Assembly: GCA_021736505.1 (NCBI GenBank)
Contig: JAIPFU010000022.1
Span: 1-16,193 of the forward strand
Length of the DNA: 16,193 nucleotides
From: Spirochaetia bacterium
GTDB taxonomy: Bacteria; Spirochaetota; Spirochaetia; PWKH01
Direction: 5' to 3'
Shown here: one piece after another, positions 7,217 to 14,467 of the stretch
Numbering within the stretch: position 1 is the stretch's first letter
Layout: the number at the start of each line of letters is the position of its first letter
Translations under genes and position numbers: made by a program
Notes under the pieces: model-generated
What the model saw: the letters and a program-made list of their open reading frames with translations, nothing else
Database searches by the model: none
What the model was told of the DNA's origin: nothing

Positions 7217-7903
7217 CTACTTCAAAGACTTCCCAGAAGAAGCATAGATATCTTTTCCCGACGGATCAATTGCTGTGATTACCGGGAAATTCTTGACTTC
7301 TAAACGATAAAGGGCTTCAGGTCCTAAATCTTCATAGGCAGCGGTGTAGATCGACCGAACGCAGGAGGCATACAAAGCTCCGCAGCCGCCGAATGCATAA
7401 AAATAGATTCCTCTGTACTCAGCTGCAGCCTCTGCTACTGAGCGGCTTCGAGGCCCTTTGCCAATCATACCCAGCAGACCGTGCTCCAGAAGAATTTCTG
7501 CAAATGGATCCATCCGTGAAGCCGTAGTAGGTCCGCAGGAACCAATTATCATGTTAGGAGGGGCCGGCGCAGGGCCCATATAATACATCAGTTGGTTTGT
7601 GATATCTACAGGAAGTTCTTCCCCGTTTTTCAGAGCAGCAGCCAGACGCTTATGGACTTGATCCCTTCCTACAAGAATTGATCCGGAAAGCAGCACAGCA
7701 TCTCCTGCCTGCAGCTCAGAGATACTTTTTTTGTCAGCCGGTACGGTAATGTGACGGCTCTCAAGCTCTTCAAGCTCTTTAAGCTCTTCAAGCTCTTCAA
7801 GCTCTTCAAGCTCTTCAAGCTCTTTAAGCTCTTCAAGCTCTTTAATCTTCTCAAAATCCTGCTTTTGTTTGAGATAATCTCCGGGATTTGCACTATTGTT
7901 CAT
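7217..7903 (-). CDS. Class I fumarase / tartrate dehydratase, beta subunit, with N-terminal (K/E)EL repeat
   Basis: The C-terminal-domain subunit of the Fe-S hydro-lyase that interconverts fumarate and malate (or dehydrates tartrate; the two cannot be told apart here). Residues 52-228 are the standard subunit: LQAGDAVLLSGSILVGRDQVHKR, IIGSCGPTTASRMDPF, GMIGKG and FYAFGGCGALYAS. The first 51 residues are an added N-terminal extension containing nine tandem (K/E)EL tripeptides (22-48), encoded by a 9-bp minisatellite. The start is well supported: GGAGG lies 9 nt before the ATG at 7903, so the repeat should be translated. The gene overlaps the alpha-subunit gene by 11 nt, implying translational coupling. 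Such an extension is not a usual part of this family; its role is unknown. It would form a highly charged helix. Confidence 0.9.
   Translation of the reverse strand: MNNSANPGDYLKQKQDFEKIKELEELKELEELEELEELEELKELEELESRHITVPADKKSISELQAGDAVLLSGSILVGRDQVHKRLAAALKNGEELPVDITNQLMYYMGPAPAPPNMIIGSCGPTTASRMDPFAEILLEHGLLGMIGKGPRSRSVAEAAAEYRGIYFYAFGGCGALYASCVRSIYTAAYEDLGPEALYRLEVKNFPVITAIDPSGKDIYASSGKSLK
7763..7843. repeat. 9-bp minisatellite, nine units
   Basis: Nine tandem copies of AAGCTCTT(C/T) with no indels; six end in C and three in T. On the coding (minus) strand each unit gives EEL or KEL. A degenerate tenth unit lies at 7844-7852. The length in bases is a multiple of three, so copy-number change would lengthen or shorten the protein without a frameshift. 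Confidence 0.95.
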
Positions 7904-8953: not shown

Positions 8954-9298
8954 ATGACCCTCAGGGAAGTAATGTCCATTTGCAACGGATCTTTAGTATG
9001 CGGTAAGCAGTCTCTGGACCGCACGGTAAAATTGGGATTTGCATCCGATCTGATGAGCGATGTCCTGACCCTACTGGATGATGATATTCTGCTGATAACT
9101 GGCTTATCAAATATTCAGGCCATACGCACAGCAGAGATGTCAGATATTACCCAGATACTTTTTGTACGCAACAAGCCCCCCACGAAAGACATGATCAGCC
9201 TAGCTGAAGCTCAGGGCATTACCCTTATGACCACTCCATTTTCTCTCTTCAGAACCAGCGGCCTTCTCTATGCTGCAGGTTTGGAGGCAATTTATTAA
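8954..9298 (+). CDS. DRTGG-domain protein (putative regulatory subunit of a redox module)
   Basis: A 114-residue cytosolic protein consisting of one DRTGG-type domain: MTLREVMSICNGSLVCG, LDRTVKLGFASDLMSDVL, DDDILLITGLSNIQAIRTA, ITQILFVRNKPP and a C-terminal GITLMTTPFSLFRTSGLLYAAGL. Proteins of this exact size and pattern are known next to HATPase and hydrogenase-like genes in Thermotogae, Clostridia and spirochaetes. The molecular role is unknown; DRTGG domains also occur in phosphotransacetylase and CBS proteins and are thought to be regulatory. It is the first gene of a three-gene plus-strand cluster (31 nt to the next gene) and is divergent from the fumarase genes. The start is set by GAGGT 10 nt upstream of 8954. 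Confidence 0.8.
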   Translation: MTLREVMSICNGSLVCGKQSLDRTVKLGFASDLMSDVLTLLDDDILLITGLSNIQAIRTAEMSDITQILFVRNKPPTKDMISLAEAQGITLMTTPFSLFRTSGLLYAAGLEAIY

Positions 9299-9329
9299 TG
9301 ATTTCGGAAATGGATTGTGAGGATAGCTA

Positions 9330-9755
9330 ATGGAGCTGAACTATAAAATTGTCGCCGGGGACTTCTCCCATGCCGGTTTTGCTTCAAGTGAAACAAAAAA
9401 GGTTCTCAAGCAGCTGAATATCTCTCCAAAAGTAATTAAACGAGTTGTGACAGCACTTTTTGAAGCGGAAGTTAATGTATCAGCCCACTCATACGGCGGA
9501 AAAGTCACCTGTGATATCAATTCACAGGGGATCAGTATTATTGTTGCTGATACCGGACCGGGTATTCCCGATTTAAATCTGGCTATGTCCGAAGGTTACT
9601 CCACCGCATCTCGGGAAATTCAGGAGATGGGTTTCGGGGCGGGAATGGGACTGCCGAATATCAAGAATAATACCGATTCCCTCTCAATCGATACCAGAGA
9701 GGGCGGCAATACGGTAATTTCTATGTGGATAGATTTCAAGAATTCAGCAAATTGA
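9330..9755 (+). CDS. Anti-sigma-factor-type HATPase (GHKL ATP-binding protein)
   Basis: A 141-residue stand-alone GHKL ATPase of the serine-kinase anti-sigma type. The N box is E45AEVN49 followed by SAHSYGG; the G1 box is DTGPGIPD (74-81); the G2 box is GFGAGMGLPNIK (101-112). There is no sensor, dimerisation or transmembrane part, so it is not a classical sensor kinase. GAGG lies 7 nt before the ATG. In the related gene clusters I know of, this protein always accompanies the DRTGG protein and a hydrogenase-like protein; its protein target is not established. No anti-anti-sigma or sigma gene is in the window. Phosphorylating a partner protein in response to the redox state of the neighbouring Fe-S protein is a reasonable inference only. 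Confidence 0.85.
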   Translation: MELNYKIVAGDFSHAGFASSETKKVLKQLNISPKVIKRVVTALFEAEVNVSAHSYGGKVTCDINSQGISIIVADTGPGIPDLNLAMSEGYSTASREIQEMGFGAGMGLPNIKNNTDSLSIDTREGGNTVISMWIDFKNSAN

Positions 9756-9771
9756 AGGAAATGCACTATTT

Positions 9772-11121
9772 ATGATAAAAAAACGGCCATTTCATCATGC
9801 ACTGAAGGTCAGGGAGGATGTATGCCGGGGATGCACCCGCTGCATGAAGAACTGTCCCACCGAGGCCATCAGGATTATTCGGGGAAAAGCCCAGGTAAAT
9901 CCGGAGCTGTGCATAGACTGCGGTCAGTGCCTCAATGCCTGCCCGTATCATGCCATTGTCATAGAGCAGGATGACTTTACCAGTATTTTCAACTATACCA
10001 GGAGGGTTGCAATCCTCCCCTCTGTATTCATCGGGCAGTTTCCTGATGATATTGAAGAGGATACCATCTACCAGTCACTCTTGGATATCGGCTTCACTGA
10101 TTTTTATGAAGCAGAATTTGGTGTGGATATCCTGCAGTCCATTGCTCAGCGCTTTAGTACCTACGCATCATACAAACCGGTCATATCCTCCTATTGTCCT
10201 GCCATTGTGCGGCTGATTCAGATCCGCTACCCTTCATTGGTTGATCATGTGAATCTTCTCCGCCCGCCGGTGGAAATCACAGCTCTCTACGTGCGTAAAA
10301 AACTTTCTGAACAGGGTATCAAAACCGAAGACATCGGTGTATTCTACGTTACCCCCTGTGCAGCAAAAATCGCCGATATAAAAACACCGGGAAATACGCT
10401 GCGCGGTTCAGAACTTGGACAGAATGATGCAGACAGCCCTCTATTTGACGGTGTCATCAATCTTGATTTTCTCTACAATCTTGTCCGGTCAAACATTGTA
10501 AAGAATAAAAATAAATTCAAAAATAGCTGCGCCATCATACCGCCGTTGACAAAGCAGGCCTGCCTCTGGAGTTTGACTCAAGGGGAAAGCAGAACAGTAC
10601 CGGGTAGATCCCTTGCGATAGATGAAATTCATAATGTTATTGAGTTTCTGGAACGTCTGGAAAACGACGAAATAGATAATCTTGATTTTCTTGAACTCCG
10701 AGCCTGCGCCCAAGGATGCGCTGGAGGAATTCTCAATCCATCCAACCGCTTTCTCACTACAGAACGACTGCAGCGCCGTTCTGAGAACCTCAGGAAAATT
10801 ACGGATAAGCAGCTTAGCGAGATCCGAAAACGCTCATCCTACTTGGAAAAGCATATTAAATTGGAATCCATTGAAGCTAAATCAAGCCTTCAGTTGGATG
10901 ATGACATAGCCGTGGCCATCAAAAAAATGGAAGAGGTGAAAAAAATCCTGAAATCTCTTCCCAATATTGACTGCGGATTGTGCGGAGCCCCCACCTGTGA
11001 GGCTCTGGCAAAAGATATTGTAGCGGGAAAAGCCCATATAAGCGATTGCACAGTCCTTCAACTGAGAAAAACGGCACCTAGCATTCAACGCATCTGGGGA
11101 GATAGCCTTAAGAAAACCTAA
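9772..11121 (+). CDS. [FeFe]-hydrogenase-like multi-cluster iron-sulfur protein, probably sensory
   Basis: A 449-residue protein. Residues 18-57 are a two-cluster ferredoxin domain (Cys 18, 21, 24, 28 and 47, 50, 53, 57). Residues 78-325 are an iron-only hydrogenase large-subunit C-terminal domain. The four H-cluster cysteines are present: Cys142 (SSYCPA), Cys196 (VTPCAAK), Cys312 and Cys316 (RACAQGC). Against active enzymes, the proton-relay Cys of TSCCP is Tyr141, the Met of MPCxxK is Thr194 and the Met before AC is Arg310, so H2 turnover is unlikely to be efficient. Residues 340-395 are a charged helical linker, and 401-426 form a C-x2-C-x4-C-x16-C Fe-S domain as in RnfB-type proteins. It is the last gene of the DRTGG/HATPase cluster, 16 nt after the HATPase. 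The Shine-Dalgarno AAGGA lies 12 nt upstream, rather far. No catalytic hydrogenase or maturase gene is in the window. Confidence 0.88.
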   Translation: MIKKRPFHHALKVREDVCRGCTRCMKNCPTEAIRIIRGKAQVNPELCIDCGQCLNACPYHAIVIEQDDFTSIFNYTRRVAILPSVFIGQFPDDIEEDTIYQSLLDIGFTDFYEAEFGVDILQSIAQRFSTYASYKPVISSYCPAIVRLIQIRYPSLVDHVNLLRPPVEITALYVRKKLSEQGIKTEDIGVFYVTPCAAKIADIKTPGNTLRGSELGQNDADSPLFDGVINLDFLYNLVRSNIVKNKNKFKNSCAIIPPLTKQACLWSLTQGESRTVPGRSLAIDEIHNVIEFLERLENDEIDNLDFLELRACAQGCAGGILNPSNRFLTTERLQRRSENLRKITDKQLSEIRKRSSYLEKHIKLESIEAKSSLQLDDDIAVAIKKMEEVKKILKSLPNIDCGLCGAPTCEALAKDIVAGKAHISDCTVLQLRKTAPSIQRIWGDSLKKT

Positions 11122-11178: not shown

Positions 11179-14100
11179 TTATAGCGGCAGTGTTGTACTG
11201 TTCTCTCCAAAACCAGAAAGAACCTTTGCTGCATCTTTTACCATATCACGGTTTGTCAGTACCACTGCAGAGTGCTTTTTAAACTCCTGAAGCATCTCTT
11301 CTGCAGCACGGGAAAGCATCTTGCTGTCAACTTTCAGCAGCAGTTCCCTTCGTTCTTCCCTGAACTGGTCTGATATCCCGTAAAGCCAGCGCTTAAAACC
11401 GAGATTTCCTTTTTCGGAAGGAACCAGAGGCCGAATTTCACGCCCTACCGAGGTCAGAACTGCCTGATCAATACTTTTCTTCGGAATTCCCTCTTTTGCA
11501 GCAGTTTCCAGTACCCTTCGAAAGGCTTCCAAGCTTGGTATAATTTGGGGATCACGGTAGGAAGAGAAAAGCACAAGTCCTTCCAGGAGATTTACCGTAC
11601 AGAACGCGCCGTACGCGCCCCCTTTTATGCGAATCTGCTCATACAAATGGTCTATGCTGAGAATATTTGCTAAAAGCCCCTGGTATATCTGATCAGCAGA
11701 ACCCGGTTCTGCTGAAGCAAAGACAAGTGAATTGCTCGCTACCTGGGCAGGACAGATAAGGGCTTCCAGACTGATATCTTCATGATTTTCAGAAACTTTA
11801 CTATTGGAAGTCGTTACTCCGGAAAAAGTCCTTTTCGATAAGCTGTGAAATAGAGAAGCTTCCGCCGTCGCTTCCTTATTGCTTCCTGAATCAGGCAGTG
11901 AACTTAGTAAACCAGAAGCCAAGTCTTTTAATTCTTCTCGAATTTCGCTATCCGCGGTCAAATGCAGAATGCTTCTGCTCCGGCACATGATAGTATTTCG
12001 AAGAGCCTGCAACTCCTCAGCCAGCACTTCCAGCTGTTCAGCATCATCCGCATTCAGTGAAGAGAGATAAAGAAGCTGGTCAATGCCTCTCCACTGGTCT
12101 TCCCGAGCCTGAACTTTGCTCAAACGGGCCGCTGCCCGCATAGAGGTGTAGGAAGGTCCGGAGGAAATGACAGATGAGGAGAAATCGTTCCGCTTCTCCT
12201 TGATGATGGAGCGGATTCGCTGCTGATCAGAGAGGTCCGCCCGAAGTAGTATATCCTGGAGAAGCGTAAAAACTTCTGTTTTATCTTCTTCAAGAAATTT
12301 TACTTGGATTACAAGCATCTCCAGAGCTTTCGCACTCCCCAGCGGCGTTCCGGAATCCAGATAGCTTGACAATCCGCCAGTCAAATGGGCAATTTTTTTT
12401 GATACTTCATGATAGGAAAGTCCTGGAAGTCCAGTCATATACATCAGTCGCCCCAGCAGCGGCAGCAGCCTCATTTCCCTCTGACTGAGACCTGAGACAT
12501 CCAGTACAAGGTCCGCATATACGATACCGTTGGTGTGATAGGGATTATACACAAAAGGAACGTTCACGCCCTCCGCTTCAATGGAGGATACGTCCGTTTT
12601 AATCCTGCGTATTTCCTGGGGGAGGTCCTCCCGATGCAGAACCGGTACAGTGTCCATAGCTTCCTGTGAATCCGGTGTCTCCTGAAATTTTCGCAGTTCC
12701 TCGGCCCCCTTCTGCAAGTTTTTTATAGCCTTTCTGCTGCTGTTTTTCTGCAGTGTTTTAAGAGATTTATCGATAACCTGGGCAAACTTCCGATTATGTT
12801 CGGAGCTTGGAGTTACTGTCACCACAGTACGGTGATTATTATTGAGCAGGTCCTGCTCTATGATTTTTGAAAAATACCGAGGATCATCGGCCCAGAGTTT
12901 TTTTATTTTCTCCATAGCCGGAATGAAAAGCAGAGTCTCTTTGGGATGTTTCCCATGCAGCCATCCCCTCAGGGACTTTGACATGCTCCTTAAGCCCAGA
13001 GGAATTCCGCCCCGCAGTTCACGCTGCCTGAATTCGATCCGTTTTATCGCAGAAGCTATCGTGTCTGCATCCAGACCTGACTCAGCCGTCTCCTTAAGAG
13101 TCTTAAAGATATGTTTTTCAAATGCGTCCCGCAGGGAGGCTTTGCTGTTGCGAATCCCGATGGAAAAGACAATATCCTTCAATTCTCCGTCCATACCGCT
13201 TACCGGGGAGATATCTTCACCTAATCCCGATTCAATAACCGCTGAATAGACAGGAGCTCCCGGATTTCCCAGGAGAATTTCAGTAAGGATATCGTAGGTA
13301 ATAAGATTTACTGGATCGAGGGCACTTCTCGTCAGCCAGTTTATGGTAATTGATGACTTCCATTTTTCAGGATTCTGCGATGCCGCCGAGGATTGAGAGG
13401 ATTCAGAAAATTCAGAAGATTCAGACGCGGGAATTGATCCCTGTTCTGATGTGACTGTCGGATTTGAATTGACTGTTGGAGTTGAATTGACTGCCGGATC
13501 TGCATTAACTGTCGGATCTGCTGATGTGACTGCCGGATCTGCAGCCGCTGCTGTAGATTCATCAGCCGCCTCTTCTTCATTTTCAGGGCTGGTGAGCGTA
13601 AGATATTTCGGTTTTTTCCAGCGCTTCGGAGATGTATACGACCTATCCACTTTTATAGATGTAAAATCATTCAGAAACTCTTTCTGCAGGAATTCCAGCT
13701 GTTCCTCCGTAGGAATATTCCCGTATACATACACTTTGCAGTTGGAAGGGTGATAATAGGCGGCATGAAATCCCTTGAACTCTTCATAGGTAAGATGAAA
13801 GATCTCCCGCGGATCACCACCAGCATCAAAACCCAAGGGAGTATCAGGAAAGAGGGAGTGAACGGAATGAGAAAAAACAAGATCATCATGACTGGAATAC
13901 GCCCCTTTCATTTCATTAAAGACAATACCGTCATACGTAAAATCGCCAGCTTCGCTCACCGTTAAGCGGACACCCTCCTGCTGGAATGTCTCCCTTCGCA
14001 TGAGAGGGAAGAATACAGCATCTCCATACACTCGAAACAAGTTGAAATAATCTTTCTTAATCGGGGAAGCCCCGGGATATACGGTTTTATCCGGATAGGT

Positions 14101-14400
14101 CATGGCATTCAGAAAGGTCTGGGCACTTCCCTGCAGAAGCGCTTTGAAAGGATCTTTGATGGGAAAATGCTGGGACCCGGAAAGAACGGAGTGCTCCACA
14201 ATATGAGCCGCCCCTCGATTGTTCTTAGGAGCAGTCTGAAAGATCAGGGCAAAAAAGTTTTCCGGATCTTCATTCCGGAGGTGAAAGACCTCTAATCCAG
14301 TAGCACTATGGGTACAGCTGATCCCCGTACCGTTGTATTCATCAATTTCATCTATAGAGTTTACGATGAATCCATGGAGCAAATCGCCTTCATGTAGCAT
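11179..14400 (-). CDS. M16C-family zinc metallopeptidase (PreP/falcilysin-like), cytosolic
   Basis: A 1073-residue oligopeptidase; relatives degrade short peptides inside a closed chamber made of four homologous domains. The inverted zinc motif HIVEH is at 66-70, and the third ligand is Glu163 in FNEMKG. Other family segments are SGSQHFPIKDPF, LNAMTYPDKTVYP, FPLMRRETFQQEG and, in the C-terminal half, EQIRIKGGAYGAF and FSSYRDP. There is no signal peptide. Residues ~275-346 are a low-complexity Ala/Ser/Thr/Pro/Val insert between the first and second domain, encoded partly by tandem repeats. The start at 14400 is chosen over 14451 because AGGAGG lies 4 nt before 14400 and MLHEGDLLHGF is the natural N terminus. 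A good promoter precedes it; it is divergent from epmA. Spirochaetes commonly carry this peptidase. Confidence 0.92.
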   Translation of the reverse strand: MLHEGDLLHGFIVNSIDEIDEYNGTGISCTHSATGLEVFHLRNEDPENFFALIFQTAPKNNRGAAHIVEHSVLSGSQHFPIKDPFKALLQGSAQTFLNAMTYPDKTVYPGASPIKKDYFNLFRVYGDAVFFPLMRRETFQQEGVRLTVSEAGDFTYDGIVFNEMKGAYSSHDDLVFSHSVHSLFPDTPLGFDAGGDPREIFHLTYEEFKGFHAAYYHPSNCKVYVYGNIPTEEQLEFLQKEFLNDFTSIKVDRSYTSPKRWKKPKYLTLTSPENEEEAADESTAAAADPAVTSADPTVNADPAVNSTPTVNSNPTVTSEQGSIPASESSEFSESSQSSAASQNPEKWKSSITINWLTRSALDPVNLITYDILTEILLGNPGAPVYSAVIESGLGEDISPVSGMDGELKDIVFSIGIRNSKASLRDAFEKHIFKTLKETAESGLDADTIASAIKRIEFRQRELRGGIPLGLRSMSKSLRGWLHGKHPKETLLFIPAMEKIKKLWADDPRYFSKIIEQDLLNNNHRTVVTVTPSSEHNRKFAQVIDKSLKTLQKNSSRKAIKNLQKGAEELRKFQETPDSQEAMDTVPVLHREDLPQEIRRIKTDVSSIEAEGVNVPFVYNPYHTNGIVYADLVLDVSGLSQREMRLLPLLGRLMYMTGLPGLSYHEVSKKIAHLTGGLSSYLDSGTPLGSAKALEMLVIQVKFLEEDKTEVFTLLQDILLRADLSDQQRIRSIIKEKRNDFSSSVISSGPSYTSMRAAARLSKVQAREDQWRGIDQLLYLSSLNADDAEQLEVLAEELQALRNTIMCRSRSILHLTADSEIREELKDLASGLLSSLPDSGSNKEATAEASLFHSLSKRTFSGVTTSNSKVSENHEDISLEALICPAQVASNSLVFASAEPGSADQIYQGLLANILSIDHLYEQIRIKGGAYGAFCTVNLLEGLVLFSSYRDPQIIPSLEAFRRVLETAAKEGIPKKSIDQAVLTSVGREIRPLVPSEKGNLGFKRWLYGISDQFREERRELLLKVDSKMLSRAAEEMLQEFKKHSAVVLTNRDMVKDAAKVLSGFGENSTTLPL
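13363..13578. repeat. Low-complexity, tandem-repeat insert within the M16C gene
   Basis: The core is five imperfect units of 18-21 bp (13453-13470, 13471-13488, 13489-13506, 13507-13527, 13528-13543), built on GACTG(T/C)CGGAT(C/T)TG, encoding a repeated P-(A/T)-V-(T/N). A second set, three 9-bp units around GATTCAGAA (13399-13425), encodes Ser/Glu-rich residues. All lie in one frame and extend the protein without breaking it. Confidence 0.85.
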
Positions 14401-14438
14401 AAAACCTCCTGCTGAAGCCAAATAACAACAGCCGGCAC

Positions 14439-14467
14439 ATTCTAAGACCAAATAGAGTATTCTTCAA
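14439..14467 (-). promoter_or_regulatory. Promoter of the M16C peptidase gene
   Basis: On the minus strand TTGAAG (14467-14462) and TAGAAT (14444-14439) are 17 nt apart, 4/6 and 5/6 to consensus. Predicted start near 14432, leaving a leader of about 32 nt with the Shine-Dalgarno AGGAGG. Confidence 0.55.

Follow-up and report, generated by a model that had tools for sequence, protein, structure and literature searches.

What do a small DRTGG protein, a GHKL ATPase and a hydrogenase-like iron-sulfur protein do together where no hydrogenase stands beside them? The question is raised by a 16,193-nucleotide stretch of DNA from a Spirochaetia bacterium (assembly GCA_021736505.1, contig JAIPFU010000022.1; hereafter the window), in which three open reading frames (ORFs) lie on the forward strand at 8954-9298, 9330-9755 and 9772-11121, separated by gaps of 31 and 16 bp. 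They encode DRT1, a stand-alone DRTGG protein with an ATG start; HAT1, a GHKL ATPase of the SpoIIAB/RsbW (anti-sigma factor/serine kinase) type; and HydS, a 449-residue homologue of [FeFe] hydrogenases. An earlier note on the sequence (the original prediction) had described this tightly packed trio and its domains, and both the ORFs and the Pfam matches agree with it: DRTGG (PF07085) in DRT1 at 31.4 bits against a cut-off of 25.2, HATPase_c_2 in HAT1 at 44.2 against 27.4, and in HydS Fe_hyd_lg_C at 78.3 against 22.1, FeS (PF04060) at 48.4 against 23 and Fer4 in two stretches above its curated cut-off.

We consider it probable, at roughly 60%, that the three genes form a compact signalling unit with a group D HydS at its core, in which HydS senses redox state or H2 and controls HAT1, and HAT1 acts on the DRTGG protein. 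A group D HydS beside an ATPase is already known as a proposed H2 sensor, and the trio is a three-gene unit of this group from a branch with an altered active-site pocket. What the analysis adds is the linkage and co-inheritance of HAT1 with HydS, the definition of this altered-pocket branch of 91 sequences, the scarcity of maturases in the genomes concerned and a second module with a different sensor.

HydS and its linkage to HAT1

Sixteen cysteines of HydS are invariant across 32 aligned sequences, that of the window included, and these are enough for the four clusters that the original prediction had allowed the protein to hold. They form two N-terminal CxxCxxCxxxC ferredoxin motifs (C18/21/24/28 and C47/50/53/57; positions 9823-9942, forward strand), the cubane set of the H-cluster (C142/196/312/316), which is kept in 121 of 121 aligned HydS rows, and a C-terminal Cx2Cx4Cx16C motif (C401/404/409/426; 10972-11049, forward strand) typical of groups C and D (PMC8163306, used in excerpt, as are all the papers cited here). 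An AlphaFold2 model with a mean pLDDT of 82.6 matches solved [FeFe] hydrogenases with a best E value of 1e-16; together, the alignment and the model show four cluster sites, predicted to be [4Fe-4S], in a protein modelled with the [FeFe] hydrogenase fold. At the positions of Cys299, Met353 and Met497 of CpI, whose roles have been described (PMC10055695), HydS carries Tyr141, Thr194 and Arg310, in keeping with the group D pattern in which Cys299 is not conserved and Met353 is replaced by serine or threonine. The proton-path residues of group D, Glu252, Glu289 and Asp265 in TamHydS numbering (PMC10407848), correspond to E272, E308 and D284, equivalents that were assigned by motif, TamHydS itself being absent from the alignments. 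With its two N-terminal cluster motifs, four-cysteine H-domain, C-terminal motif and lack of a PAS domain, the protein is, by those sequence marks that could be examined, of the group D (M2e) HydS type. Membership of the PAS-type group C was rejected: TmHydS of Thermotoga maritima (M2f) likewise has this layout of clusters and changed residues in the second sphere (PMC10055695) but also a fused PAS domain, whereas the Pfam scan finds no PAS domain in the window protein, which ends at residue 449, only 23 residues past its last cluster cysteine.

The family had been taken to be undescribed, and this claim fails. TamHydS of Thermoanaerobacter mathranii has been published as a putative sensory [FeFe] hydrogenase of group D (M2e), for which a sensory role was proposed and next to which a "histidine kinase-like ATPase" is encoded (PMC8163306). 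As far as the excerpts describe it, TamHydS binds about 16 Fe per reconstituted protein, lacks a PAS domain and takes up a synthetic [2Fe] site (PMC8163306); it also undergoes an H2-induced change of secondary structure and has sensor-like properties (PMC13104023, PMC8163306). The window HydS resembles it in the two N-terminal [4Fe-4S] sites, the four-cysteine H-domain, the C-terminal motif, the absence of PAS, the Ser/Thr in place of Met353, the three proton-path equivalents and the adjacent ATPase. It differs in carrying tyrosine for Cys299, where a Thermoanaerobacterium relative among our loci (L077) has alanine, and arginine for Met497, where both L077 and TamHydS (PMC8163306) have leucine, as well as in having no hydABC genes inside the window and a convergent peptidase gene after it. 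Thus the predicted arrangement of an Fe-S sensor relayed by an ATPase stands in so far as the protein belongs to a putative sensory kind and HAT1 is its near-constant neighbour; its novelty does not. Among 7998 candidates scored, the closest named relatives are spirochaetal (e.g. P0006, from a Spirochaetia bacterium, 65% identity) and those from Bacteroidota rank lower, while a scan of viral contigs with the single HydS sequence, which detects close relatives only, returned 21 pattern stretches and no relative.

Gene linkage was surveyed in the best 80 of 358 HydS relatives from one scan of a genome collection, a sample in which distant loci are under-represented and some loci are shortened by contig ends. 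Of these 80 loci, 76 have HAT1 no more than 1.5 kb upstream of HydS and 75 have DRT1 no more than 2.5 kb away; of the four that lack HAT1, L041 and L066 offer fewer than 100 bases of upstream DNA. HydA or HydB occurs within 9.5 kb of HydS in 51 of the 80, and many Bacteroidota and Bacillota loci share the order DRT1-HAT1-HydS-DRT2-PHP-(NuoE)-HAT2-ferredoxin-like-HydB-HydA. The trio is present in all 26 fetched loci from Sphaerochaetaceae and genomes near the window, and none of these, some of them shortened, has HydA or HydB within 9.5 kb, so that the survey does not show the trio always adjoining a hydrogenase. Of 14 other Spirochaetota loci, 12 scored for HAT1 upstream and eight for DRT1; L234 and L236, which have no HAT1 score, still show HAT1 before HydS in the gene-order listing. 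The order can also vary, as in a Desulfoluna metagenome-assembled genome in which HydS-DRT2 is followed by DRT1-HAT1 (L013:9971-13174). A further GHKL ATPase distinct from HAT1, named HAT2, is encoded in spirochaete hydABC clusters (L161-L171 and L173-L175), where its gene is flanked by NuoE and a small ferredoxin-like gene.

Inheritance was examined in a spirochaete family of 139 genomes, with thresholds of at least 200 bits for HydS and at least 170 bits for stand-alone HAT1. HydS was found in 41 genomes (in pieces in G312 and partial in G345), and stand-alone HAT1 in 40 of these 41, missing in G345, and in none of the 98 genomes without HydS. HAT1 and HydS are therefore inherited together, usually with DRT1. 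The survey points to HAT1 as a specific candidate partner of HydS, and to the DRTGG protein as the next one; a 2026 paper on TamHydS lists finding the interaction partners among the steps to follow for hydrogenases of group D (PMC13104023).

Of the 41 HydS genomes, 38 have a group A HydA above the cut-off, as do 125 of all 139. In at least 14 genomes hydA and HydS share a contig, always convergent and with hydA 12.2-30.7 kb downstream. The statement that no hydrogenase or maturase follows the trio accordingly holds for the window, which stops about 5 kb past the trio and in whose nine ORFs Pfam detects no other hydrogenase or maturase family, but perhaps not for the genome, given the hydA genes downstream in these relatives.

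The diiron pocket and the maturases

Whether HydS of this kind carries a complete H-cluster bears on what it could sense. Tyr141 (10192-10194, forward strand) occupies the catalytic Cys299 position and Arg310 (10699-10701, forward strand) the Met497 position beside the dithiolate bridge. In a quick tree of 118 of the 121 HydS rows (SH-aLRT support only, midpoint root; L041, L066 and L209, truncated or duplicate, removed), a branch with SH-aLRT support of 99 sets apart 91 rows, that of the window among them, and throughout this set the first position is Phe/Tyr and the second Arg/Lys/Asp/Glu. The other 27 rows, among them the Thermoanaerobacterium protein, have mostly Ala/Ser at the first position and an uncharged residue, often Leu/Met, at the second, with L074 (Tyr/Arg) as an exception. 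The proton-path Glu252 position is Gln in 16 Sphaerochaetaceae and four Bacillota rows of the 121, and remains Glu (E272) in the window; four of the 16 Gln-bearing Sphaerochaetaceae rows come from HydF-positive genomes. A charged residue at the Met497 position may hint at a missing diiron site, which it does not prove, because Met497 shows little conservation across groups C and D (PMC8163306).

Within the 139-genome family, the maturase HydF exceeds its cut-off in 38 genomes and HydG in 35, and among the 41 genomes with HydS in only eight and seven, respectively. A separate search for HydE in 39 chosen genomes found it in 13. Five essentially single-contig Sphaerochaetaceae genomes of 3.2-3.6 Mb (G305, G306, G308, G315 and G325) yielded none of HydE, HydF and HydG. 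Each of them carries the trio along with a pair of group A HydA proteins (loci L161-L165, L211, L217, L220, L221 and L226), and the single HydA copy read from each has intact H-cluster motifs. This would call either for a route of maturation not yet known or for complexes resembling hydrogenases that function without a diiron site. The same pattern occurs in a Parabacteroides isolate (G009, locus L011), in which the three maturases were not found and HydS and a motif-intact HydA are kept. Divergence is an unlikely cause of these absences, since maturase-positive close kin score HydF 473-490, HydG 421-439 and HydE 319-334 bits in the same searches. Because the canonical HydA of maturase-negative genomes retains its TSCCPxW/MPCxAKK/MACxGGC motifs, maturase absence by itself is no proof of an H-cluster-free state. 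For Sphaerochaeta pleomorpha and S. globosa, a potential for H2 production was inferred from the genomes in 2018 (PMC6052044). Since the family often combines HydS and group A HydA without detectable HydEFG, the need of HydS signalling for an H-cluster is directly testable in cultured species.

The two maturase searches do not always agree. HydF without HydG over the cut-off was recorded in G294, G295, G297, G298 and G299 of the family, an unexplained mismatch that recurs in G149 and G201, where HydF and HydE are present; G270 and G278 of the family show HydG without HydF, and G243 has HydE only. Because of this discordance, assembly gaps or missed genes are possible in individual genomes. Beyond the family, 20 of the first 25 genomes examined (four of them family members) have HydF over its cut-off, and so do 20 of a further 30 selected spirochaetes; for Bacteroidota the count is 13 of 15 genomes. 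The selected spirochaetes include G501 and G507, the genomes nearest the window at 57% identity, which have both maturases sought there, HydF and HydE. Maturase labels assigned by hand from these HydF, HydG and HydE results mark 22 rows of the 91-row branch as negative; one row labelled negative (L059, from G025) carries a HydG piece of 309.8 bits, just below the cut-off of 312.15. Maturase absence as a marker of the altered pocket was not upheld, as other members of the branch, including those Bacteroidota and G501/G507, have HydF.

These results bear on the published proposal, that HydS with a full H-cluster reads H2 and tunes hydABC expression through the adjacent ATPase. It is a credible alternative which in our judgement falls a little short of an even chance. 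It gains from the group D marks of the window protein, from gene clusters that contain both HydS and hydABC in many Bacteroidota and Bacillota, from hydA 12-31 kb downstream in at least 14 spirochaete genomes, from the HydF and HydE of G501 and G507 and the HydF of most Bacteroidota, and from the acceptance of a synthetic [2Fe] site by TamHydS (PMC8163306). It loses from HydF and HydG lying below their cut-offs in 33 and 34 of the 41 HydS genomes, from the aromatic and charged residues at the two pocket positions throughout the window's branch and from the replacement of Glu252 by Gln in several relatives, the window not among them. Because the pocket is altered and many genomes of the family lack the known maturases, a sensor with cubane clusters only is a serious possibility for the window's branch.

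The signalling unit that we favour would accommodate both states. The redox state of HydS, determined by H2 if the diiron site is assembled and by electrons at the ferredoxin level if it is not, would alter the contact between HydS and HAT1. HAT1 would then bind or phosphorylate the DRTGG protein, perhaps at its invariant serine, and the signal would reach, by way of the DRTGG protein, a target that may plausibly be the expression or activity of hydABC or the redox balance more widely. For Bacteroidota and Bacillota, the PHP-type phosphoesterase and second DRTGG protein of the same operon could reverse the mark. What the analysis establishes is the domain content, the motifs, the gene linkage and co-inheritance and the lack of maturases in the genomes searched; the gating of HAT1 by HydS, the action of HAT1 on DRTGG and the PHP reset, together with phosphorylation, target and signal, we infer.

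The ATPase, the DRTGG protein and a second module

A profile of 21 HAT1 orthologues finds its best solved relatives in the anti-sigma F factor (1til and 1l0o, E values of 2.5e-11 and 2.7e-11), with RsbW (6m36) at 3e-4. The three elements of a GHKL ATP site, N-box, DxGxG and lid, are all present: the Glu/Asn/His of the N-box, DxGPGI and the lid GAGMG are kept in 115-118 of 118 sequences, and the alignment shows an ATP site that is predicted to be intact and of the SpoIIAB type. DRT1 has the DRTGG fold and contains the motif SDLMSDVL, whose Asp and Ser are invariant, the Ser being residue 35 from the ATG at 8954; the pattern D-L-[ML]-S-D-V is common to the DRTGG partners of related HAT proteins and nearly invariant in HAT-linked DRTGG proteins.

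Several observations weigh against the signalling unit as proposed. HAT1 scores 48.1 bits against the curated SpoIIAB family TIGR01925, far below its cut-off of 135, and is SpoIIAB-like in its ATP site but for this reason not filed as SpoIIAB. Among the nine ORFs of the window Pfam finds no match to STAS, PP2C, sigma-factor or transcription-factor families, and thus neither a STAS antagonist nor a sigma-factor partner alongside HAT1. A DRTGG gene is not obligatory nearby, since no DRT1 turned up beside HAT1-HydS in six of the 14 other Spirochaetota loci and in L069, and in Alkaliphilus (L071:9926-11227) HydS stands alone, with no HAT1 nearby either. Finally, the C-terminal cluster of TamHydS is not reduced by H2 (PMC13104023, in the excerpts consulted).

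An alternative for DRT1 is that it binds a ligand, for example adenine nucleotides, and sets the threshold of HAT1 instead of accepting phosphate, which we regard as unlikely while taking it seriously. The folds most similar to DRT1 are two DRTGG domains, one from AF1212 and the other from a CBS-pyrophosphatase whose structure was determined with AMP/Ap4A, CBS domains often bind adenine nucleotides, and a paralogous module described below pairs HAT with CBS domains. DRT1 differs from these proteins in standing alone, in its link to a GHKL ATPase and in its motif; the near-invariance of D-L-[ML]-S-D-V in HAT-linked proteins, and its not being evident in the AF1212 sequence (in a weak alignment, E 0.18), suggest a partner-specific role and not a general one in ligand binding. 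In the literature searched, by word co-occurrence only, no text mentions DRTGG together with FeFe and hydrogenase.

The second module comes from a HAT1-profile paralogue in 44 of the 139 family genomes (two as contig-edge pieces), 12 of which lack HydS. In the 12 proteins read, from 13 fetched loci, this paralogue is a fusion of a CBS pair with a HAT1-like domain, and Pfam lists PF00571 with PF13581 for many CBS-HAT homologues. In all 13 loci (L242-L254, e.g. L248:7130-9202) it is followed by a DRT2-type DRTGG protein with the same serine motif and by a PHP protein. Mainly because this module has a CBS pair fused to HAT in place of HydS and retains DRTGG and PHP, HAT and DRTGG, with or without PHP, read as a module with an exchangeable sensor, and the kinase seems to take swappable sensors.

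A bolder extension would make this a new type of partner-switching module. The SpoIIAB and RsbW kinases act with SpoIIAA/RsbV and SpoIIE/RsbU as partners; they share with HAT1 the GHKL type, the catalytic motifs and an adjacent gene for a small alpha/beta partner, and a phosphoesterase-type (PHP) gene occurs in the larger operon of HAT1 relatives. The differences are that the partner is DRTGG and not STAS, the phosphoesterase PHP and not PP2C, the sensor an Fe-S protein, and that the window holds no sigma factor. HAT1 would then be the serine kinase, DRTGG the phosphoacceptor in place of STAS and PHP the counterpart of PP2C, with an Fe-S protein or a CBS pair as interchangeable sensors; in the window's branch the sensor, without its diiron part, would be a pure Fe-S redox gauge, which would explain its persistence without HydEFG. 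Taken as a whole we hold this extension to be doubtful, somewhat more so than the ligand-binding role of DRT1.

Least probable, and in our estimate quite improbable, is a role of the trio in HydABC assembly or activity in place of signalling: the shared gene cluster in many Bacteroidota and Bacillota, the loose synteny in spirochaetes and the HydA of 38 of 41 HydS genomes are offset by the lack of HydA/HydB within 9.5 kb in the 26 spirochaete loci, by HydA being common without HydS (125 against 41 of 139 genomes) and by a synthetic operon of an NADH-linked [FeFe] hydrogenase that has been built, and its product activated, in E. coli (PMC4694547).

Neighbouring genes

The gene after the trio is, as predicted, a convergent peptidase, of the M16C/PreP type by Pfam (11179-14451, reverse strand). 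An M16 gene lies convergent near the trio in all 26 fetched Sphaerochaetaceae and near-window loci, in a count that tolerates intervening genes (two in L202), and is a neighbour conserved among spirochaetes, though probably no part of the system. Its ORF contains a low-complexity insert rich in Thr, Pro, Ala, Val and Ser (13375-13566, reverse strand). Regulation of the divergent fumarase genes by the trio was considered and dropped, as neither the fumarase genes nor the permease turned up in the other 241 loci, many of them short. The ORF of the fumarase beta subunit (7217-7903, reverse strand) has an unusual N-terminal extension of Leu-Glu-Glu repeats.

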